Shown: in pieces, positions 11,348 through 37,879 of the stretch
Position numbering within the stretch: the stretch's first letter is position 1
How the letters are laid out: the number at the start of each line of letters is the position of its first letter
NCBI RefSeq assembly: GCF_002097715.1
Contig: NZ_CP020737.1
Span: 1,302,001 to 1,366,000, forward strand
DNA length: 64,000 bases
Reading direction: 5' to 3'
Origin: Burkholderia ubonensis subsp. mesacidophila
GTDB taxonomy: Bacteria; Pseudomonadota; Gammaproteobacteria; Burkholderiales; Burkholderiaceae
Translations under genes and position numbers: made by a program
The notes under the pieces: generated by a model
Databases searched by the model: none
The model's input: the letters and a program-made list of their open reading frames with translations, nothing else
Told to the model about the DNA's origin: nothing

Positions 11348-11417
11348 CTAGCTAAGCAGGAGACGAGATTCGTGAGGCGGCGGGATTCGTCAGAGGGATG
11401 GCGGCGAAACCCGTACG

Positions 11418-11509
11418 CTTCCCTGCGCTGGCATTATCCAGATCAGGTTCAAAGGGTATTTCTCACCCGCAATTGCCGGTTTCTTGACCGGGCGCATTGC
11501 AGGACCCCC
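11418..11509 (-). promoter_or_regulatory. TPP riboswitch (THI element) controlling thiC
   Basis: On the minus strand the leader contains the conserved blocks of the TPP aptamer in order: GGGTGAGA, ACCC, TTGAACCTGATCTGG and ATGCCAGCGCAGGGA. A variable stem built on GCCCGGTCAAGAAACCGG lies between the first helices. It starts about 90 bases upstream of the thiC ATG. Binding of thiamin pyrophosphate should shut off thiC expression. Confidence 0.96.
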
Positions 11510-11776
11510 GCGTTAGCAAGCGCACACGATACACCGGCTTCGCGGCGGTTTCAACCGGGGACAGATTCGTGCCGGATGTGCGGCCGCAGCATCGTGCGGC
11601 GCGCACCGGCGGCACGGCGCGCGCCGCGCACGGGGCGGCGGCCGCGCGGACACGACGGCGCAGCGCGGCATTGCACGGGTGCGGGCGTCGCGAAAAAAAA
11701 TTTTGCGACGGCCTGTCATATGGCGCCGCGTCGTCCGTCTATTCGGCTCCTTAAACCCATGTACTGGAGTGATGTC

Positions 11777-26560: not shown

Positions 26561-26897
26561 GCCGGGGTGATGAAATTGGTAAACATAGCGGACTTAAAAG
26601 ATTGAGTGCCCGGCCGGAAACGGCCGGTGCAGAACCCTTCAAATTCGGCGAAACCCCTGATGCGCGGCATCGAGGCAACGCCGAGCCAAGCCTCGCGGCG
26701 CACGCGAGGAAGGTGTAGAGACTAGACGGGGGGCGCCTAAGGCGCACGGGCAACCACACGAGCCCGCGCGCGATGGCGAAGGCATAGTCCAGCGCACGAA
26801 CGGCATCGCTTAGACGATGCCGGCTTTGAAAGAAGCAGTGTGACGAAAATCCGCCGCCTTAACTGGCTTGCCGGTTCGAGTCCGGTCCCCGGCACCA
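26561..26897 (+). tRNA. tRNA-Leu(UAA), interrupted by a group I intron
   Basis: The 5' exon is 26561-26595 and the 3' exon 26846-26897, giving a mature 87-nt tRNA with encoded CCA. The acceptor arms GCCGGGG and CCCCGGC pair, the anticodon loop of the joined exons is CTTAAAA with anticodon TAA, and the T arm reads CCGGTTCGAGTCCGG. A class II variable arm follows the anticodon stem. The break lies between anticodon positions 34 and 35, the same site as in cyanobacterial tRNA-Leu introns. The gene is also the likely attachment site of the adjacent island. Confidence 0.93.
26596..26845 (+). ncRNA. Self-splicing group I intron (IC3-like) in tRNA-Leu
   Basis: A 250-nt intron with no ORF. Core elements appear in order: P as AAATTCGGCGAAACC (26641), Q as CAACGCCGAGCC (about 26676), R as GTGTAGAGACTAGACGG (26713) and S as AAGGCATAGTCC (26779). 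A GAAA-capped P2 hairpin (CCGGCCG and CGGCCGG) and a P9-like hairpin at 26801-26822 are visible. The 5' exon ends in T, which can wobble-pair with G in an internal guide GAGT to form P1, and the intron ends in G. The core closely resembles the Azoarcus tRNA-Ile intron. Confidence 0.93.
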
Positions 26898-27483
26898 GGA
26901 TCGCTTCCTCCGAATTCCTTCCCGGTCGCAAGAACCTTGCCGTAACGCTGGCGACGGCCCGCAAAAGGCGCGACGAAGCCCGCGCAAAGCTTGCCGTAGG
27001 CGTCGTCCGAACGGAGCGACGACAATCGCGAAACGCACCGCCAAGCTGAACGCCGACAATACGTTCGAGGGGGACGCGCTTGCGCCGATGCCGTTCGTTC
27101 GTGCCGGCGAGCTTCGTCAAGCCGAATGAAGTCGGTGCGAGCTCGAGCTTTTCCCGGCGCTCGTTCGGCTGCACGGCCGAAGTGCGAAGCCGCGATCAAC
27201 GCAGCGCTGCGCCGTTTGGGCTGCGACGAACGCACGGCAATTACCGGCCACGATTTTCGCGCGATAGCCCGCACCATCCTGCACGAAGCGCTTGAGCAGA
27301 AGCCGGAGGTCATTGAACACCAGTTGGCGCACGCCGTACCGGATGCGCTTGGCTCGGCATGCAACCGCGCGAAATTCATCAATTCGTCAAGGAACGTCGC
27401 TTGATGATGCAGTCGTGGGCGGATTTCATGATTGAGCTGAAGCGGGGGCGAAGGCGATCCCGCTCAGTATCGCTGCGGCTTGA
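26898..27483 (+). pseudogene. Degenerate P4-type tyrosine integrase
   Basis: Fragments of a P4-like integrase lie in order but in different frames directly after the tRNA. They are an N-terminal piece (KNLAVTLATARKRRDEARAKLAVGV), NADNTFE, PFVRAGELRQAE, the catalytic HDFRAIARTILHE, EHQLAHAV and a C-terminal ERRLMMQSWADFMIEL, with the final AKAIPLSIAAA in another frame. The total is far shorter than the usual 400 residues, so there are internal deletions as well as frameshifts. The residue expected to be the catalytic Tyr (usual context AYNR) is Cys (ACNR). It cannot be functional. Confidence 0.85.
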
Positions 27484-27582
27484 GCAAAAGGCGCGAATAA
27501 ATTAATGAGGCCACTGGCGGGAGTATTTTCGTCTACCGTCGAGCCTGGCAATGACAAGGCACATTGGGGAAATTATTTCAAC

Positions 27583-27620
27583 ACAAAATCGGAGTGTCGC
27601 ACGATCGTGCGACACTCCGA
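27583..27620 (-). terminator. Perfect 32-bp palindrome with T-run, probable operon terminator
   Basis: Bases 27589-27620 form a perfect palindrome with 16-base arms beginning TCGGAGTGTCGCACGA. On the minus strand it is followed by TTTTGT. It lies about 75 bases past the last gene of the island operon. No other gene is seen in 27484-27696. Confidence 0.7.
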
Positions 27621-27696
27621 GGAAGCATCAAATATAAGTCTATATATATCGGCAAAATGGTCGCCGAGTACGGCGCCGCGCGACTTCGAATGCGGA

Positions 27697-27975
27697 TTAA
27701 TTCTCCGGGCAGCCATTTTGCCACCAACTGAGGAACTGGTTCACCATGTCTTGAGACCAGGGACTCTCGCCCGAGCTGGGCTCGGGCATCGATCCGCTCT
27801 TGACTCGCGTGTAGATATTGGACGCATTGCTCCTGACGGCGGTATAACTGCTCAAATCGAGCCCTCTTTTTTTCATGCAATCAATGTCCTTTTGCGTGAA
27901 CATCTGCTTAATGCCATTGTTCCATGTGACCTGGGTTTGGCCGCTCTGTGCTTCATGTGCATGGTCGTTTGTCAT
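27697..27975 (-). CDS. 92-aa protein of the LodA-like cluster, function unknown
   Basis: A small soluble protein without a signal peptide. The ATG at 27975 is chosen because GAGG stands six bases upstream; an ATG six bases earlier is too close to it. The sequence shows MFTQKDIDCMKKRGLDLSSY, then IYTRVKSGSMPE and WSQDMVNQFLSWWQNGCP. The pattern 'MFT-DI-M-DL-Y ... I--RV--G-MP ... W--F--W---G-P' is one I associate with small proteins beside copper or quinone oxidases, but I cannot name a family. It is the last gene of the four-gene cluster, 37 bases after the preceding stop. Confidence 0.65.
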   Translation of the reverse strand: MTNDHAHEAQSGQTQVTWNNGIKQMFTQKDIDCMKKRGLDLSSYTAVRSNASNIYTRVKSGSMPEPSSGESPWSQDMVNQFLSWWQNGCPEN

Positions 27976-28012
27976 TTGCATCCTCTTTCGTGGAGAAATG
28001 TTGTGGTATGGG

Positions 28013-29896
28013 CTACTTCAAGCTTCGATTACGCAAGGCAGACGCAAGTCCGCCGGCCGTTTCGGCCGCCGGAGCTTCGGGTGAGCTTACCGTGCCGCGT
28101 GCCAGGATCACGCTGAAGTCGCCGGCCTGACCTGCAGGATTCTGGCCCTGGCTGCCGTGACAGCCCATGCACCCTCCCATGTTGTGGAACACCCCGCCGT
28201 AATAAGTGTTCTTGTGCTTCGAGCCGTCCTGGTTCCAGTCGGTGCTGACGTTGGGCGACAGACCGCCACTGAACATTTGCAACGAGCGGTTCGTTTCCAC
28301 GACGATGTTCGCCATGTAATAGCTCGACGCAGCCGGATTCGAAGCACTATACGGAGCGCTCGCAGGAGTGTAGGGGGAACCGTTAGGCTTGTTGCGATCG
28401 GGATTCTTGTCGTACGGAAAATACTGGACGTTGATCAGCTTGTACGCCATCCACGGCGAGGTGGGGATGCCCGCTTGCTTGAGATGGTCCGCAATAGCAG
28501 CGTGGGCTTGCATGTTGGCTTTGACGACGTAGTCAGGAATGGCGTTGTCGCGTTTGTTCACGCAAATGTATCCACCGCTCGGATTCATGCTTTGTTCATT
28601 GCGGTAATAGAGCTGTTTCCCGGGCGCTTTGCAGTAGCTTGCGTTGGTTAGCGGCCGACAACGATCAGGATCGGAGGTCAGGATGACCGAGCCGAGGTTG
28701 CTGGGAATTTCCTGACCTTGTGGCTGCGAGGCCGGTTGCGGATCGACGAGGCAAACTTGTGGTGTCGTGGCGGTTGCAGCGGGTGAGCCGATGACCTGGC
28801 CGTCGGCGTCTTCGACGGGCTTGCCGTCCGACGTCAGAAGGTTGTCTGCTTGCTCGAACGTCGCATAGATGAAATACGGCGCGGAGGGTGTTTTCTGGAT
28901 GATGTGCAGGGCGACCAACCCCCACATCGCATCGCGAAAGCACTTGGTGCCGGTGGTCCCGACCTTCTCGTAAAAACGAACCAATTGCATGTGAAACCGG
29001 CCGGATTTGATTTCGTCGGCGCTGAGCTGACGCCATCCTGCCTTGATCTCGATCGTTCCGTCCGGCAGGCTGACATAAGTTTTGCTTCCTTTGGTTCCGT
29101 TATTAGGCGGACTCGTCTTGTATTTCGCCAGATAGTTCTTCGTATCCGTGACGACGTTTGACGGAATGCTGGCCCACCACTGCTTCGATGAATCATTCGG
29201 ATCGCTATTGCCCGCGACATAGACGTATTCCGAGCGATTGGCCTTTGCAAGAAAGCGGATAAGCTGCGGCGCACTGTTACCGCTTGCCTGAGTACTGTCG
29301 ACGACGCCCGCGAACATGTTGGCAAGCGTGATCTGATCAGTTTCGTCTAGATTGATCCAGGGCGTACTGTTGCGCTGCTGCGAGGGTCGGCATGCCTGAA
29401 TGGACGTGCCGTAGTTGTAGGCGGGCAGCGCATCATATCCGAGCGACGGATCTTTTACGCCGGGATAGCCCGGCGGCGGACCGTACGTAGGCATGCCGGA
29501 TTTGAATTGGAAGTTGCCAGGAAAGATCTCGACTTTGCTCCGAAACGTTTCCCATACCAGAGGACCGGTATAGCTGGGATCACCGAACCTGTATTTCGAT
29601 GACGGCGCATCCCGCTGCCCGATTTTGCCCTCCTGCGGACCCGCCGGCCAGTTCAGCGCGATGAACTCCTGCCATGCAAATGCCGCGGCCTGCTCTGGCG
29701 TCGCCGTCGGTGCGCCGCCACCTTTGTCGTTGAACGGCGGGTTCAATTCGCTTGGGACCGATGACGAGATCTGTATGGCGGCCGCTGTCTTGTTGGATTG
29801 CGCCTGTGAGACATGAGTCGGATTAACTGCAATAATTGCACCAATGGCGAGACTTACTGACAGAGCCAGTAGACTCTGCAGAGCGTATCGTTTCAT
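28013..29896 (-). CDS. Exported 627-aa protein with one C-terminal CxxCH haem motif
   Basis: A signal peptide (MKRYALQSLLALSVSLAIGAII) is followed by a long mature chain that I cannot assign to a named domain. Features include EFIALNWPAGP near the N-terminus, FHMQLVRFYEKVGT, MWGLVALHIIQKTPSAPYFIYATFEQ in the middle, and CMGCHGSQGQ at residues 576-585, a single c-type haem site. The ATG at 29896 is preferred because AAGGAG stands seven bases upstream. It probably acts in the periplasm as an electron-transfer or binding partner of the neighbouring oxidase. GC content is visibly lower than in the flanking genes. Confidence 0.7.
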   Translation of the reverse strand: MKRYALQSLLALSVSLAIGAIIAVNPTHVSQAQSNKTAAAIQISSSVPSELNPPFNDKGGGAPTATPEQAAAFAWQEFIALNWPAGPQEGKIGQRDAPSSKYRFGDPSYTGPLVWETFRSKVEIFPGNFQFKSGMPTYGPPPGYPGVKDPSLGYDALPAYNYGTSIQACRPSQQRNSTPWINLDETDQITLANMFAGVVDSTQASGNSAPQLIRFLAKANRSEYVYVAGNSDPNDSSKQWWASIPSNVVTDTKNYLAKYKTSPPNNGTKGSKTYVSLPDGTIEIKAGWRQLSADEIKSGRFHMQLVRFYEKVGTTGTKCFRDAMWGLVALHIIQKTPSAPYFIYATFEQADNLLTSDGKPVEDADGQVIGSPAATATTPQVCLVDPQPASQPQGQEIPSNLGSVILTSDPDRCRPLTNASYCKAPGKQLYYRNEQSMNPSGGYICVNKRDNAIPDYVVKANMQAHAAIADHLKQAGIPTSPWMAYKLINVQYFPYDKNPDRNKPNGSPYTPASAPYSASNPAASSYYMANIVVETNRSLQMFSGGLSPNVSTDWNQDGSKHKNTYYGGVFHNMGGCMGCHGSQGQNPAGQAGDFSVILARGTVSSPEAPAAETAGGLASALRNRSLK

Positions 29897-30082
29897 TGCG
29901 GACTCCTTGCTCATTTTAATTCTAGAGGGAAATCACACTATGTCGGCCTCGGCGGCCATCGTCGTTTCTTGGTGGTGCGGGGAAAATTTTACTTTTAGGT
30001 ATCCGATATTATGAGAATCGAAGGTGATCTACCAGCTAGCAAATTTGATAGTGCCTCGTTCAGATCTGAATCAGCGGTTCGC

Positions 30083-31261
30083 TCACTGGCCAGGCGCCGT
30101 GTGCGGCATCTCAACTTCACGCTGTACGGTTCGCCAAAATTCCGATTGCGGCCAACGCCGCTCGAGACAATAAAAGTAGTGTCGCATCTTCAGATATTGA
30201 CGATACTGTATCCGCAGCGCCTGCTTGAATTCCTCGATCGCACGAGGATTCCCGCCCATTCGATTCTGAATCGCCTTCGCCGCGGAAATACCGTTCATCA
30301 GTGATTTGACGATCCCTTGAGCCGTGATGGGATCGTAGGCCGATGCAGCATCGCCGATCGCAAGCCACTGATCTCCGCACAGTTTGTCCAAACAGTAGGA
30401 CGGCGCCGGGCAGGACTTCAAATGGAGATCGTGTGGATTCGGACTGAGTCCACGCACCAGCCGCGATGTATGGGAAGTGGCGCCAAGCAGGCTGTACCAG
30501 TGTTCCGGTTGATACAGGCGCATCGTTCGGACCGCTTGCGCATGCGTTGCGAGCATGACGACGACCGTGTTGCCCGGTACCGATGCAACGTACCACCAGC
30601 CTTGCTCGACGGCTTCAAGTTGAGTCAACCTGGAAAAGGGCGCATCGGCATCGAATCGTGGAAGTCTTGCGGCAATGCAGACAAGCGGATTCGAATTCAC
30701 GCGTTTGGCGCCGCGCTGCCTGGCGAACGCAGCGTGCGCACCGCTTGCGTCGACGACGAAGTCCGCTTGTACGCGCGAGACAGCCTGTCCGGCGCGTCCT
30801 ATGCTCAGCGTGTATCCGGCGCCGCTGGACGGCTCGGACGCCAACAGCGAACACTCGGTCAGCAATTCCACGCCTGCGGTACGCGCCTGCGATGCCAGGA
30901 GTTCGTCGAATTTGCGTCGATCGAGATGCCAGCCATGTCCATGGGGGCTGAGCAGGAAATCGTTGTATCCGCGCTTGTCACTCCCCCAATACGAGCAGCT
31001 TCCGTAGCACGGCTCATGCGCTTGCGCCAGGAATGCCGCGTCGATACCCAAACTCCGGAAGAGCATCCGGCCTTCCGGCGGAATGCTCTCCCCAATCCTG
31101 ACGCTGCCGTACGAGCCCGCTTCGACGATCAAGATGTCGGCGACGCCGGCCCTTGCCAATGCCAATGCACAACTGGCGCCCGCCGGCCCGCCACCGACCA
31201 CCGCTACCTGATAGCGCACCTTGCTTGGGTTTGCCACTGCCAATTTTTCAACGGTTAGCAT
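30083..31261 (-). CDS. lodB: LodB-like FAD-dependent oxidoreductase
   Basis: A 392-residue flavoprotein. The N-terminal Rossmann motif VVGGGPAGASCALALARAG is followed by GESIPPEGR, WHLDRRKFDELL and the FAD-binding GDAASAYDPITAQGIVKSL, as in the tryptophan-halogenase/geranylgeranyl-reductase fold. In lod operons LodB is required to form the cysteine tryptophylquinone cofactor of LodA. It starts 37 bases after the LodA-like stop, with a weak ribosome-binding site. The symbol is given by resemblance and gene pairing, not by a search. Confidence 0.8.
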   Translation of the reverse strand: MLTVEKLAVANPSKVRYQVAVVGGGPAGASCALALARAGVADILIVEAGSYGSVRIGESIPPEGRMLFRSLGIDAAFLAQAHEPCYGSCSYWGSDKRGYNDFLLSPHGHGWHLDRRKFDELLASQARTAGVELLTECSLLASEPSSGAGYTLSIGRAGQAVSRVQADFVVDASGAHAAFARQRGAKRVNSNPLVCIAARLPRFDADAPFSRLTQLEAVEQGWWYVASVPGNTVVVMLATHAQAVRTMRLYQPEHWYSLLGATSHTSRLVRGLSPNPHDLHLKSCPAPSYCLDKLCGDQWLAIGDAASAYDPITAQGIVKSLMNGISAAKAIQNRMGGNPRAIEEFKQALRIQYRQYLKMRHYFYCLERRWPQSEFWRTVQREVEMPHTAPGQ

Positions 31262-31298
31262 GTACGCGACCGATTAGGCAAGAATGGATCTTCGAGAC

Positions 31299-33431
31299 TC
31301 ACGTGTTTGACGTCGGAGGGGGATCAATTTCTTGGCTGGGCCAAGGATAGACCTTGTTGCTATAGTCCTTTTCGAAACGACTCTCCACTTCGACGTACCA
31401 ATTTTCCCGGCAAATCTTGCTGTCGTATCCTCTTATCGCGGGACCTTGTATGACAAAGCCGATTTTGTCCCAATTAACCAGGATGCCTTTGCGTTGCTGG
31501 TAACGCCCAACCATGTCCGCCGTCCCGGCCCACGTGCCTTCTCCTCGTACAGAATAGCGTTGATAATCCGGCAATGTGGCAGGTGGGTTGGATTGACCTT
31601 TAACAGCGGCCAAGTCATCGTAGGTGTACACCGCCACTGGCCGTTGCGCAGGCCACGACCAATATAAGTTCGTGTTTCCGTCCGGGTTAGGGTCGGGCAA
31701 ATGCGTCGCGCATGAGTTGTAGTCGGTATGCCAGGGAATCGCCATGAATTTGCCCAGATCACCTGGCTCTATTTCCTTGTGATCGGGATCAAGCGGTATA
31801 TAGCCTACGCTAAGGAATGGCTCGGCTTTGGTTGCGGCGCTGTAATCGAATTTGCGTGCATTGATTCGAAAAGGCCCGATCTTCGGGGCCATTTTGGGGG
31901 GCGTATTGGGGTCATTCGTCCAATCTGCCTTGTATAGATTCGGATCGCGGACGATAAAAGTCATATCGATTCCAGGGCCAAGACGCCCGCCCAGGCAATT
32001 CGTCAGGACTGTCTTGTCAAGCGCCTCGCCCAGGCCGAGCATCTTGGGTTTGTCATTGGAATATCGCTTATTTGCCCATTGCTCAACAAGAAAATACTGC
32101 AACGTGGTCAGCGTCAAGAAGCTTTTTTGACTGTCGCCGAGCGAAAGCGGCATCAAATAATTATTTTCCAATGCTTGATTGGGGTCGTTTGGGTTTCGAA
32201 TTTGGCTAAATGTAGCGCTTGGACTTTCCTTGAGTGAATCGACTCGGTGAAAGTCGGACCCTCCGGGGGTATTCCATGGCAAATTAGTGCTCCATCTCTG
32301 CAGTTCTGCTGCTTGAAGAATGGGAAGGATCTCGTCATCGAATTTAGGAAGGTAACTTTGTTGATAATTTTTGAGCCTGTAGAGGGTTGGGTTCAATTGG
32401 AATTTCTCGGTCCATGTGGTAAAAATATCGTCCCACAACGTAACGACATTTCTAATCTGTGGAGCATATGAAGGATCGGTCGAAACTACCCATGCATCGC
32501 TATCCACGACACGCGTGCTGCCATCATTGAAAACGAGAAACGCGGAAACCGGACCGTCTGAAGTATCGTCAAGCCAATTGTCATTATCGACGTCATGATT
32601 CAATGGCTCATCAGGATTCGCATTGCCTTGGGCGTCGAAGCCGCATGCGCGGCCATAGCCACCCATGACGAGCAAGCGCCCGTAGCGATCTGTGGTCATT
32701 TCGCCTAGCGTCGTGATCGGGTTGCTGCCCGATGGAGGCGCGACAGTTGAATTGTTCAGGAGCGGATTCACCGCATCAGAGGCGGGAAAGGATTTTGGAT
32801 AATTGGGCAGGGATTTGATTTTTTTGAATTCATTGGTGCTGCCATAGCTTGCTGTCCCGAATTTATCGAATTTGATGGTCGTCGTTTGAGACGCCTTGAT
32901 GGCGCGTGGTCCCGCGTCGATAACCAGCTTTCGCAACCTGTCCTTGCTGTTGGGATCGGACCCAAAATCCAGATTGCGCAACTCAGGACGTTTGCCGCCC
33001 TCGTAAGCGGGAAGTCCCGCCAGTCCATCATTCTTAAGCGGCTCCAGTCTCCAGCAATTGGCTTTCTTGTTGGCGAGATGAACTGTCCATACAATATCTA
33101 TCACGGTTTTCCCGGCGACAATTGAGCCAATTTTTATTTCCGTCCCGGAATACATGGGGTACTGATTATAGGGGTCCGTATCCTGCTCGGATAGAACGAT
33201 TCTGAAGCGTGCCGCTTGCCGCTTAAGGCGTCCTTCGGCATCACGCAGGTCACTGCTGGTAATCGTCGTATTTTCCGTGTCCGGCTTGATTGGGAGTCCG
33301 CCCGTAATGGATGTCGAGGCTTCCGTCGATAAGCCAGCCGAGGTTTCCGGTGCAATATAGTATTCTTCACTGTTGCCGACGCGTGCCATTCCAATGGCGG
33401 GATGAATGCGTAATACCGAGATTTTTGACAT
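31299..33431 (-). CDS. lodA: LodA-like quinoprotein amino-acid oxidase
   Basis: A 710-residue protein, close in size to lysine 6-oxidase LodA (about 726). It opens SKISVLRIHPAIGMARVGNS, the typical family start, and has DRYGRLLVMGGYGRA, a Cys479 in TNCLGGRLGPGIDMTF, Trp567 in IPWHTDYNSC and YWSWPAQRPVAVY near 590. Family members build a cysteine tryptophylquinone and oxidise lysine or glycine, releasing ammonia and H2O2. Cys479 and Trp567 are the likely precursors, though their spacing (88) exceeds that in LodA (65). The ATG at 33431 follows AAGGGG. No signal peptide is seen. Confidence 0.82.
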   Translation of the reverse strand: MSKISVLRIHPAIGMARVGNSEEYYIAPETSAGLSTEASTSITGGLPIKPDTENTTITSSDLRDAEGRLKRQAARFRIVLSEQDTDPYNQYPMYSGTEIKIGSIVAGKTVIDIVWTVHLANKKANCWRLEPLKNDGLAGLPAYEGGKRPELRNLDFGSDPNSKDRLRKLVIDAGPRAIKASQTTTIKFDKFGTASYGSTNEFKKIKSLPNYPKSFPASDAVNPLLNNSTVAPPSGSNPITTLGEMTTDRYGRLLVMGGYGRACGFDAQGNANPDEPLNHDVDNDNWLDDTSDGPVSAFLVFNDGSTRVVDSDAWVVSTDPSYAPQIRNVVTLWDDIFTTWTEKFQLNPTLYRLKNYQQSYLPKFDDEILPILQAAELQRWSTNLPWNTPGGSDFHRVDSLKESPSATFSQIRNPNDPNQALENNYLMPLSLGDSQKSFLTLTTLQYFLVEQWANKRYSNDKPKMLGLGEALDKTVLTNCLGGRLGPGIDMTFIVRDPNLYKADWTNDPNTPPKMAPKIGPFRINARKFDYSAATKAEPFLSVGYIPLDPDHKEIEPGDLGKFMAIPWHTDYNSCATHLPDPNPDGNTNLYWSWPAQRPVAVYTYDDLAAVKGQSNPPATLPDYQRYSVRGEGTWAGTADMVGRYQQRKGILVNWDKIGFVIQGPAIRGYDSKICRENWYVEVESRFEKDYSNKVYPWPSQEIDPPPTSNT

Positions 33432-34206
33432 GTTCGACCCCTTGTTTTCGTGGCGCATGACAGAATATTTCGCCCGATATGGGCTGATTGCGGAAAAGTC
33501 GAGCTGCAAACATTTTTTAAAACGTGTGATCGATACGGTTCCTTATTTGGACGCTGTTGCGCGCATGCGTCAGCGCGCCTTGCAGTCGACGGGTTTGCGA
33601 ATCAACACCCCATCTAGTGGCAACCTCTGGCGATGAGCGCCATTGACTCTTCGATGAAATGTTTGTCAGCTATTTTGAAAATAAATCGGCGGCCTGGCCC
33701 TAAATTGCAAAGGTGTGCGTCGGCTAAGGTAGATTGGATTTTAGGCCCCACGCCAACTGGGTTGAACTAGCATTTTTTATAGTTGAAGAAGGGATGGGGT
33801 GGCGCGCTCCGGAAAATTTATATTCCAATTTGGTTGACGTTGCGCGCCATTGATTTGACTTTCTTGAACAATTCGTTTTACTCGGTGGCGTCGCATTCCA
33901 GGCGTGCGTCCTCGCGCATTTGTCACCACAACGCATGCCTCAGCCGCCGCGAAGCATGCAGACAACCACCGTCACATTCCCGGCGTATAGTCCTGCCTCT
34001 GTTGTACACCGGCCAGCCGTTGCCGGTGCGTAGGGACGGACAGTGCGCGTCGGTCGAGGCTGCGTTGCGCTGCTGCGTGTCGGTCATGCCATTGATACTG
34101 GCAGACAGGAAGGACCCACCCCGACCCGCGTTCTGGTCGTCATGACGATGACGGTTGCCCGCATCGGGCGCCGTTTCTCAATCCAGGAACTCCGGAGAAA
34201 CGCACA
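33432..34206. other. Gene-poor spacer at the distal edge of the island
   Basis: About 775 bases with mixed, AT-richer composition in the first half and GC-rich sequence after about 33,890. It must hold the promoter of the lodA-like operon, but I see no convincing -35/-10 pair, RNA gene or coding sequence. I also find no copy of the tRNA-Leu 3' end that would mark the other attachment site. Confidence 0.5.
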
Positions 34207-35322
34207 ATGACAATGCATCAACCGAGGGCCCAGGCAGAACCTGCCGAGCAACCGAACCGCCAGCCGCGCCGTCGCCGTCTCGACCGCGCGCGCCGTTACC
34301 TGGCGTGCGGCGCGCTGCTCCTGACGATCGCGCCGCGCGCGTTCGCGTGGGGCGACGAAGGGCATCAGATCGTCGCGAAGATCGCCGATCAGTATCTGAC
34401 CAGCACGACCCGCGCCGCGGTCAACGCGATGCTCGCGAACGACGCGAGCGGCCTGACCGCGACGGACATCGCCAACGAGGCGACCTGGGCCGACCGCTAT
34501 CGCACCACGCATTCCGCCACCGCCAACTGGCACTTCGTCGACACCGAGATCAGCAACGGCGACATCGACGCCGCGTGCAACGGGCATCCGCCGCTGCCGG
34601 TCAACACGCCGGCGTCGGCCGGGCCCGCGAACGCGTGCGTGGTCGACAAGATCGACCAGTTCACGAAGGAACTCGCGTCACCACAGACGAGCGACGCCGA
34701 GCGTCTCCTCGCGCTGCAGTTCCTGCTGCATTTCGTCGGCGACCTGCACCAGCCGCTGCATTCGAGCGACGACAACGATCGCGGCGGCAACGACAAGATG
34801 GTGTCGGCGCCGGGCATCGCGTCAGGGAAGCTGCATAGCTACTGGGACACGGCGTTCCTCAAGGGTCTGGGCAGCGACGCCGGCACGATCGCGACGCAGC
34901 TGGCCGGCAACATCACGGCGAGCCAGCTCGCGACCTGGCAGTCGCAGACGCCGCGCGACTGGTCGCTCGAGGCATTCGACATCGCGAAGCGGGATGCGTA
35001 CGGCAAGCTGCCTGCGCCAGATAGTTCGGGTGCCTATGCATTGTCCGCCGACTACGTCGCGACCGCTCAGCAGGACGTCGCGCTGCAGTTGAGCCGCGCC
35101 GGCGTGCGGCTCGCGATGGTGCTGAACGCGGCCAACCTGCAGGCGCCGGGCTCGTCGGATGGCGGCGGCGGGGTGCAGGTGTGGGTGAACACGAGTTCCG
35201 GCGTGTATCACTGTCCCGGTTCGCCGTACTACGGCAACACGAGGAGCGGCGTCTACATGTCCGAAGGTCAGGCGAAGGCGGACGGCTATCGCGCGGCGGG
35301 CGGCAAGGCCTGCTCGGGCTGA
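34207..35322 (+). CDS. Secreted S1/P1-type nuclease
   Basis: A 371-residue zinc nuclease. A basic N-terminus and hydrophobic segment end at FAWGDEGHQIVAKIAD; cleavage before Trp would expose the N-terminal Trp that binds zinc in this family. Other zinc ligands lie in WADRYR, NWHFVD, FVGDLHQPLHSSDDNDRGGND and KLHSYWD. The enzyme should degrade single-stranded nucleic acids and may remove 3' phosphates. After about residue 315 a Gly-rich linker leads to an extra C-terminal module (WVNTSSGVYHCPGSPYYGNT...GYRAAGGKAC) found on other secreted bacterial proteins. Confidence 0.88.
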   Translation: MTMHQPRAQAEPAEQPNRQPRRRRLDRARRYLACGALLLTIAPRAFAWGDEGHQIVAKIADQYLTSTTRAAVNAMLANDASGLTATDIANEATWADRYRTTHSATANWHFVDTEISNGDIDAACNGHPPLPVNTPASAGPANACVVDKIDQFTKELASPQTSDAERLLALQFLLHFVGDLHQPLHSSDDNDRGGNDKMVSAPGIASGKLHSYWDTAFLKGLGSDAGTIATQLAGNITASQLATWQSQTPRDWSLEAFDIAKRDAYGKLPAPDSSGAYALSADYVATAQQDVALQLSRAGVRLAMVLNAANLQAPGSSDGGGGVQVWVNTSSGVYHCPGSPYYGNTRSGVYMSEGQAKADGYRAAGGKACSG

Positions 35323-36068: not shown

Positions 36069-37604
36069 TCAGTTCTCGACGAGCTTGTCGGCGAGCGACT
36101 TCACGCGAGAGACGTCCGCGTGCGTCGCGCGCGCGAGGCGCGTGCCGTAGTCCGCATCGGCCTTGTAGAAGTACGACAGCATCGCGTACTTGTTCGCATC
36201 GTTCGTCACGTGATTCAGGTCGCCCGACAGCGCGGTCACGAGATCCTGCCGGCTCTGCGCGGACAGCGCGCGGTAGTACTCGCCTGCCTGCCGGAAGTTC
36301 AGCGTCTTGTGGATCGCGGCCTGCTGCGTCGTGCCCGACAGCGGCGTCGCGGCGGACTTGTAGCGCGGGTTCTGCGCGAGCTCGTTCAGCGTCGACGGCT
36401 CGTAGTTCACTTCACCCTTGCGGTCGCCGAAGTTCATCGCGCCGTCCTGGTTGTTGTTCGTGACGGGCACGCGCGGACGGTTGACCGGCAACTGATTGAA
36501 GTTCGCGCCGAGACGGTACATCTGCGTGTCGGCATACGAGAACATCCGGCCCTGCAGCATCCGGTCTTCCGACGGCTCGATGCCGGGCACCATCCGCGAC
36601 GGCGCGAACGCCGATTCCTCGGTCGCTTCGAAGTAGTTGTCCGGCACGCGGTTCAGCGTCAGCGTGCCGATCGTGCGTTCCGGAATGCCGGCCCAGACCT
36701 TCGTGTCGTCGAGCGGGTTGTAGTCGAACTTGTCGAGGTCGGACGGATTCAGCACCTGGATCGTGAGATCCCACTTCGGATACTTGCCGGCCTTCAGCGC
36801 GCCGTACAGGTCGTTCGTCATCAGGTTCCAGTCCGCGCCGATCGAGCCCGGAATGTCCTGCGGACGGAGCCCGTGCATGCCCTGCTGGCTCTTCCAGTGG
36901 AACTTCACGTAGGTCGTCTTGCCGTCGGCATTGACGAGCTTGAACGCGTGCACGCCGAAGCCGTCCATGTGCCGGTACGAGTCGGGCATGCCTTCGTCCG
37001 TATACAGCCGGGTCAGCATGCTGGTCGCTTCGGGCGCGTGCGCGAAGAAGTCGAACGCGAGGTTCGGGTCCTGCACGCCGGTCACCGCGCTCGGCTTGTT
37101 CGCATGGACGAAGTCCGGGAACTTGATCGCGTCGCGGATGAAGAAGATCGGCAGGTTGATGCCGACGAGATCCCAGTTGCCCTGCTCGGTATAGAACTTC
37201 ACCGCGAAGCCGCGCGGATCGCGCGCCTGCTCGGGCGAGCCGCGATAGCCCATCACGGTCGAGAAGCGCACGAACACGGGCGTCTTCGTGCCGGGCGTGA
37301 AGACCTTGGCCGTCGTCAGGTCGCTGAGGTCGGCGCTCGGCACGAATTCGCCGAATGCGCCGGTGCCGCGCGCGTGCACGACGCGCTCGGGGATGCGCTC
37401 GCGATCGAAGCGCTGGAGTTTCTCGATGAGGTGCGAGTCCTGCAGCAGCGCGGGACCGTTCGGTCCGGCCGTTTGCGAGTTCTGGTTGTCGCCGACGGGC
37501 GAGCCGTTGTCGCGCGTGAGTTCGGCGGCATGCGGAGAGGCGCTCAGCGCGACGCAGGTCGCGGCGATCACGCCTTGCAGAAGTCGGTTCGCGGAGTGTG
37601 ACAT
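36069..37604 (-). CDS. katB: Periplasmic monofunctional haem catalase
   Basis: A 511-residue clade-type small-subunit catalase that dismutates H2O2. A signal peptide (LLQGVIAATCVALSASPHA) precedes the catalase core. The active-site His lies in ERVVHARGTGAFGEF, the Asn in the FVRFSTV...GNWDLVGINLPIFFIRD region, and the proximal haem Tyr in RMFSYADTQMYRLG. The ATG at 37604 is preferred since AAGGAA precedes it; the frame is open further upstream. Export and the ankyrin gene downstream match KatB of Pseudomonas. Confidence 0.93.
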   Translation of the reverse strand: MSHSANRLLQGVIAATCVALSASPHAAELTRDNGSPVGDNQNSQTAGPNGPALLQDSHLIEKLQRFDRERIPERVVHARGTGAFGEFVPSADLSDLTTAKVFTPGTKTPVFVRFSTVMGYRGSPEQARDPRGFAVKFYTEQGNWDLVGINLPIFFIRDAIKFPDFVHANKPSAVTGVQDPNLAFDFFAHAPEATSMLTRLYTDEGMPDSYRHMDGFGVHAFKLVNADGKTTYVKFHWKSQQGMHGLRPQDIPGSIGADWNLMTNDLYGALKAGKYPKWDLTIQVLNPSDLDKFDYNPLDDTKVWAGIPERTIGTLTLNRVPDNYFEATEESAFAPSRMVPGIEPSEDRMLQGRMFSYADTQMYRLGANFNQLPVNRPRVPVTNNNQDGAMNFGDRKGEVNYEPSTLNELAQNPRYKSAATPLSGTTQQAAIHKTLNFRQAGEYYRALSAQSRQDLVTALSGDLNHVTNDANKYAMLSYFYKADADYGTRLARATHADVSRVKSLADKLVEN

Positions 37605-37879
37605 GTCGTTGATGTTCCTTGACTGAGGTGGGTTGCGAAGCAACGCCGCCAATGTAAAAGGTTCATCAGACGATTCGCCAATTGAATCTCGTTAAGGACG
37701 CGATAGGCAAAAGTCGCAATCGAGCAGAACGGCGTCGCATCTGCATTGCAGACAAGCGACTGCGCGACCGATAGCCCTATTGACGGCGTGCCGTGGCACG
37801 ACCGGCCATCGAGTCTGTTCCGATTCCTCCTGAGACGCTTCGCGCGTGCCGATGCCGCGCGCGAGCCTGATTGGCGAAC

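Follow-up and report, generated by a model that had tools for sequence, protein, structure and literature searches.

The closest described relatives of the locus reported here are the lodAB pair of Marinomonas mediterranea (a lysine epsilon-oxidase) and goxAB (a glycine oxidase), whose characterised enzymes LodA and GoxA release H2O2, together with the quinohaemoprotein amine dehydrogenase of the qhp operon (QHNDH), an enzyme known to contain both cysteine tryptophylquinone (CTQ) and c-type haems (PMC7876137). According to the sections of a 2015 survey drawn on here (PMC4417212; parts of PMC3948610, PMC4699246 and PMC7876137 also supply background), a characterised member was at that time missing from most LodA-like groups, which are presumed to differ in activity, and the neighbours named are small genes, tyrosinases, multicopper oxidases and ferritin-like genes; for the literature up to that survey, those sections mention no haem-protein neighbour, catalase-like fusions apart. 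We analysed a 64,000-nucleotide stretch of Burkholderia ubonensis subsp. mesacidophila (NZ_CP020737.1, positions 1,302,001 to 1,366,000; hereafter the window, with coordinates counted from its first base), part of a 7.84-Mb genome, in which lodA-like and lodB-like genes are followed by genes for a c-haem protein (CYT) and a small protein (SMALL), all four on the minus strand and in this order. Comparison with related loci suggests that the LodA branch found here is often paired with a CYT-type haem protein, and such a clade-wide haem partner offers a concrete handle on the role of one LodA group.

The lodA-like gene (31299–33431, minus strand) encodes a predicted CTQ-type oxidase of 710 residues that matches Pfam LodA_N and LodA_C (the PF17990/PF18417 pair) at 169.1 bits (cut-off 26.3) and 124.1 bits (cut-off 25), as expected from the original prediction, which had called the pair LodA/LodB-like and proposed this hidden Markov model check. 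Profile alignment to the solved LodA places C516, W581 and D512 of that enzyme at C574, W593 and D570, so that C574 and W593 are the predicted CTQ residues and D570 the conserved aspartate; the cofactor residues are likewise those of GoxA, which belongs to the same superfamily. As in M. mediterranea, a LodB-like flavoprotein gene (30083–31261, minus strand; 392 residues) lies directly behind, 37 bases downstream, which is the neighbour looked for in the LodA family; its product, expected to mature CTQ, scored above the Pfam cut-offs for Trp_halogenase and FAD_binding_3 and below the NCBIfam equivalog cut-offs for LodB (263.8 of 400 bits), GoxB (204.7 of 400) and QhpG (162.7 of 240). The oxidase itself stayed below the equivalog thresholds for lysine 6-oxidase (NF038172; 227.9 bits versus 600) and glycine oxidase (NF038173; 153.5 versus 750). 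It further differs from lodAB in the addition of CYT and SMALL, and from goxAB in having no twin-arginine leader, a feature reported for groups IIA and IIB in the consulted sections of PMC4417212.

CYT (28013–29914, minus strand; 633 residues) has a hydrophobic, signal-like N-terminus and a single C-terminal CxxCH motif (C582, C585 and H586) that is invariant in 149/149 aligned rows including that of the window, in keeping with the exported CxxCH protein foreseen for this position; an alternative start (ATG at 29896; 627 residues) has the better ribosome-binding site. The window protein matched nothing in NCBIfam, and its one Pfam match was weak, unrelated and below cut-off (E 0.16). Of 7,995 candidates scored for likeness to it, 1,237 were hits with E ≤ 0.001. 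CYT is probably an exported c-haem protein of an unnamed family. Its predicted structure (predicted local distance difference test score (pLDDT) 89.8; an earlier AlphaFold2 model built from 18 sequences, with pLDDT 49.6, was discarded) gave cytochrome P460/c′-beta as the best fold matches. Both share with CYT the C-terminal CxxCH and, compared by eye, a GxIxxKxxW-like motif before it. CYT is nevertheless several times larger, and P460s keep a lysine in MxKD, whereas the sole invariant lysine of the CYT-superfamily alignment stands in GxIxxKxxW. The P460 model PF16694 did not match the window CYT at E ≤ 10 (it matched 4 of 16 CYT-superfamily members at that threshold, at best with 8.1e-4), and homology by sequence was rejected at hhalign probabilities of only 24 and 4.5; because the profiles gave no significant match, the proposed likeness to P460 rests on fold. 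An ordinary electron-carrier cytochrome c was also considered and set aside, given no Pfam match above cut-off and its absence from the fold rows, but Cytochrom_C was matched weakly by 2 of the 16 superfamily members, so that this reading keeps some weight. A link between this large unnamed family, the P460/c′-beta fold and oxidative enzymes would open its function to experiment.

SMALL (27697–27975, minus strand; 92 residues) has no hydrophobic N-terminus. A profile of 15 SMALL relatives matched residues 652–745 of AsqI, its C-terminal domain (structure 5yy2), with E 1.6e-13 over profile positions 10–96 of 96, although SMALL is free-standing. A SMALL profile also found a similar stretch at the head of a Paracoccus denitrificans tyrosinase (E 5.6e-10) encoded two genes from a CYT relative; the intervening gene and that relative correspond to genes X and CYT of the operon at locus L053 (36% and 35% identity). 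SMALL lies directly 3′ of CYT at 15 of the 31 named CYT loci collected by CYT profile. In four Burkholderia loci (L045, L046, L048 and L059), a CYT relative has a second CxxCH protein 5′ and a small gene 3′; the latter is perhaps PixA-like, and its L048 copy had no Pfam match.

In a 35-row LodA tree, the window protein falls within a nine-row clade (support 100/100, stem 1.14) that it shares with four loci from its own genus, a further genus in the family, and Xanthomonas sacchari, Pseudoalteromonas xiamenensis and Roseibium. Judged on sequence, the clade is distinct from the other LodA-like proteins sampled, a sample that held neither Marinomonas LodA nor the reference sequences of groups I–V of Campillo-Brocal 2015. 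Of 7,994 candidates scored with the clade profile, 1,027 proteins matched with E ≤ 1e-120, counted whether or not they belong to the clade, and the best 120 of these carry names from several phyla. We split 49 loci with LodA matches by which profile, clade or other, scored better. Eleven fell to the clade (window, L027, L053–L056, L072, L088, L089, L094 and L111) and 38 to the other LodA proteins. A CYT-superfamily gene stands beside lodA at 10/11 clade loci versus 1/38 others. The clade exception, L111, has a ferritin-like gene by lodA and a CYT elsewhere in the same genome (L052); the sole non-clade case, L093, is a weak LodA-like (58 bits) 3.4 kb from a CYT-superfamily gene. The window was the start locus, L027 and L111 were reached via CYT-bearing genomes and the other eight clade loci via LodA searches; restricted to loci reached by LodA searches only, the comparison gives a CYT neighbour at 8/8 clade loci versus 0/28 others (Fisher test, relatedness ignored). 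L053 and L054 are near-copies, several locus stretches are short or ended by contig ends, and the L076 stretch had no LodA match with our own profile. The counts leave out G346, in which two partial LodA matches lie at the ends of contigs, as well as G947, G951, G978 and G789; from a search in which 32 plasmid records matched LodA, they take in three (H4, H5 and H6).

At 9 of the 10 paired loci CYT lies 5′ of lodA, the window being the one in which it lies 3′ of lodB; between the two genes stand SMALL in L027 and a ferritin-like gene in L053 and L054 (PF12902 was checked on the L053 copy only). All ten lodA-adjacent CYTs have hydrophobic N-termini. In the CYT tree, which has long branches (L093 above all), placing these ten takes a minimum of four label changes: six form a short group, L053 and L054 form a pair, and the window and Roseibium sit separately inside a group mostly without lodA. 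Three further arrangements were seen at LodA loci: L027 (12146–16115) carries two different tandem lodA genes before one lodB, only the first belonging to the window clade; a ferritin-like gene, recognised with our own profile, lies directly 5′ of lodA in another LodA group (L057, L058, L069, L082, L083, L090 and L095); and the lodA-like genes of L066 and L114 are split into several reading frames.

Viewed from CYT, the association is looser. At only one of the 31 named CYT loci, Roseibium L027, does lodA adjoin CYT, and the order there (CYT-SMALL-lodA-lodA-lodB) differs from that of the window. This rules out a fixed four-gene unit: the exact set occurs in the window and at that one Roseibium locus. 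LodA_N was found anywhere in 9/31 CYT genomes, versus 12/398 of a phylum sample drawn another way, and CYT-SMALL therefore seems not to need LodA. The suggestion that the locus is a lodAB variant with extra genes therefore holds for the CYT-superfamily neighbour of the clade but not for the exact four-gene set, which is rare.

We tentatively prefer to regard the locus as a horizontally acquired unit built around the distinct LodA clade, in which H2O2 from LodA would be handled by exported CYT with help from SMALL. By analogy with the family, LodB would complete the CTQ of LodA in the cytoplasm, and LodA would then oxidise an amine or amino acid to an oxidised product, ammonia and H2O2. Gene linkage pairs the clade with CYT, a c-haem protein that is probably exported and P460-like. 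CYT may be a haem enzyme that deals with peroxide: on the far side of the inner membrane it would encounter the H2O2 and either oxidise something with it or render it harmless to the producing cell. SMALL, given the recurrent pair, may be a helper of CYT. The case for peroxide as the link comes from the N-termini: in 11 clade LodA proteins the nearest methionine lies 5–9 residues before the histidine of the first motif, R(I/V)HP, leaving no room for a signal peptide, and CYT has a signal-like N-terminus. Direct electron transfer would thus require LodA to be exported in some other way, which favours, with modest confidence, peroxide as a diffusible link.

The main rival for the window locus itself is coincidence: lodAB and CYT-SMALL could be separate, self-sufficient modules collected by a mobile element, with CYT-SMALL serving an unrelated task. 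This we consider possible but rather unlikely. No lodA lies in the stretch examined at 14/15 named loci with CYT and SMALL, the gene order in the window is unlike that in Roseibium, and other DNA occupies the tRNA site described below in two relatives. The spacing points the same way, with 168 bases between lodB and CYT (186 if CYT begins at the later ATG) compared with 37 between lodA and lodB and 37 between CYT and SMALL; the larger gap holds one promoter-like site (29946–29919; 9/12 matches), the only one there, although such sites are not in excess in the region (4 versus 4.9 in shuffles). Coincidence fits poorly, however, with the CYT-superfamily neighbours concentrated in the clade, with the separate lodA-CYT pairings in the CYT tree and with one terminator-like site 3′ of all four genes. 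That site (27589–27620, minus strand) is a perfect 32-base palindrome with a T-rich tail, TTTTGTGTTG, directly after it (reading 27620–27589), and is a likely terminator; it is the sole minus-strand terminator-like site listed for 27400–34200, in which such sites on both strands (6 versus a shuffled mean of 8.6) are not in excess. The four genes form a putative operon.

A broader reading, which we hold to be doubtful, sees the apparently widespread LodA clade as one component of a two-part system of quinone and haem, the second component being an exported P460-type enzyme of greatly increased size. The haem component would use the peroxide or electrons of the oxidase on a second substrate, and would have been re-recruited several times, also into pairs with tyrosinase.

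CYT could instead accept the electrons of reduced CTQ, as is thought for the haem subunit of QHNDH, making the system a CTQ dehydrogenase. The adjacent lodA and CYT genes would suit such an enzyme, which would combine CTQ and c-type haem as QHNDH does. As for the other qhp products, the window LodB resembles QhpG, if below cut-off, the window LodA differs from QhpC, a small crosslinked protein, and counterparts of QhpD and QhpE are absent from the four genes. A dehydrogenase is made unlikely by the single haem motif of CYT, where the QHNDH alpha subunit has two c-type haems, by a LodA without and a CYT with a signal-like N-terminus, by the P460/c′-beta fold matches and by the H2O2 released by the characterised relatives. 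The passage of electrons to a periplasmic cytochrome, which the original prediction had raised, likewise finds no support in the N-termini and the fold matches. Least probable is that CYT helps to make the quinone, as di-haem MauG does in tryptophylquinone making according to the consulted part of PMC7876137: the concentration of CYT neighbours in one LodA clade would fit, but LodB is already in the window operon, other LodA loci mostly have LodB without CYT, MauG has two haems against one CYT motif, and CYT occurs in genomes in which no LodA_N was found.

The four same-strand genes and their single terminal hairpin were found as described, on an AT-richer island (26898–33964; GC content 54.9% versus 69.3% for the rest of the window) that looks foreign and horizontally acquired. 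Its left edge is a tRNA-Leu(UAA) gene with a group I intron (26561–26897, plus strand); the tRNA was read by eye (ARAGORN listed none at this site), and the intron matched Rfam Intron_gpI at 26586–26741 with 32.2 bits (E 1.8e-6), short of the gathering score of 50. The 371-base tRNA-Leu/intron region was matched in all 65 same-genus genomes searched. In 6/6 relatives the left-flank match stops at 26897–26908 (split in two pieces in L156). The right edge was set by one relative, L151, whose flanks match to 26897 and resume at 33965; in L155 the right flank resumes at 35288, and in the other four the left flank alone matched within the stretch compared. With both flanks found around other DNA in two of the six relatives, L151 and L155, the tRNA site looks variable. 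Within the island, a decayed remnant (27045–27382, plus strand; frames read with their internal stops) gave no model match and is what we take to be a phage-type integrase; its part 27173–27382 also lies in the intervening DNA of L151 (77% identity). Directly right of the island lies a catalase gene (36069–37652, minus strand), ruled out as a member of the system since this flank is common to L151 and L155, which lack the operon. Elsewhere, the window carries a thiamine pyrophosphate riboswitch (11402–11519, minus strand).
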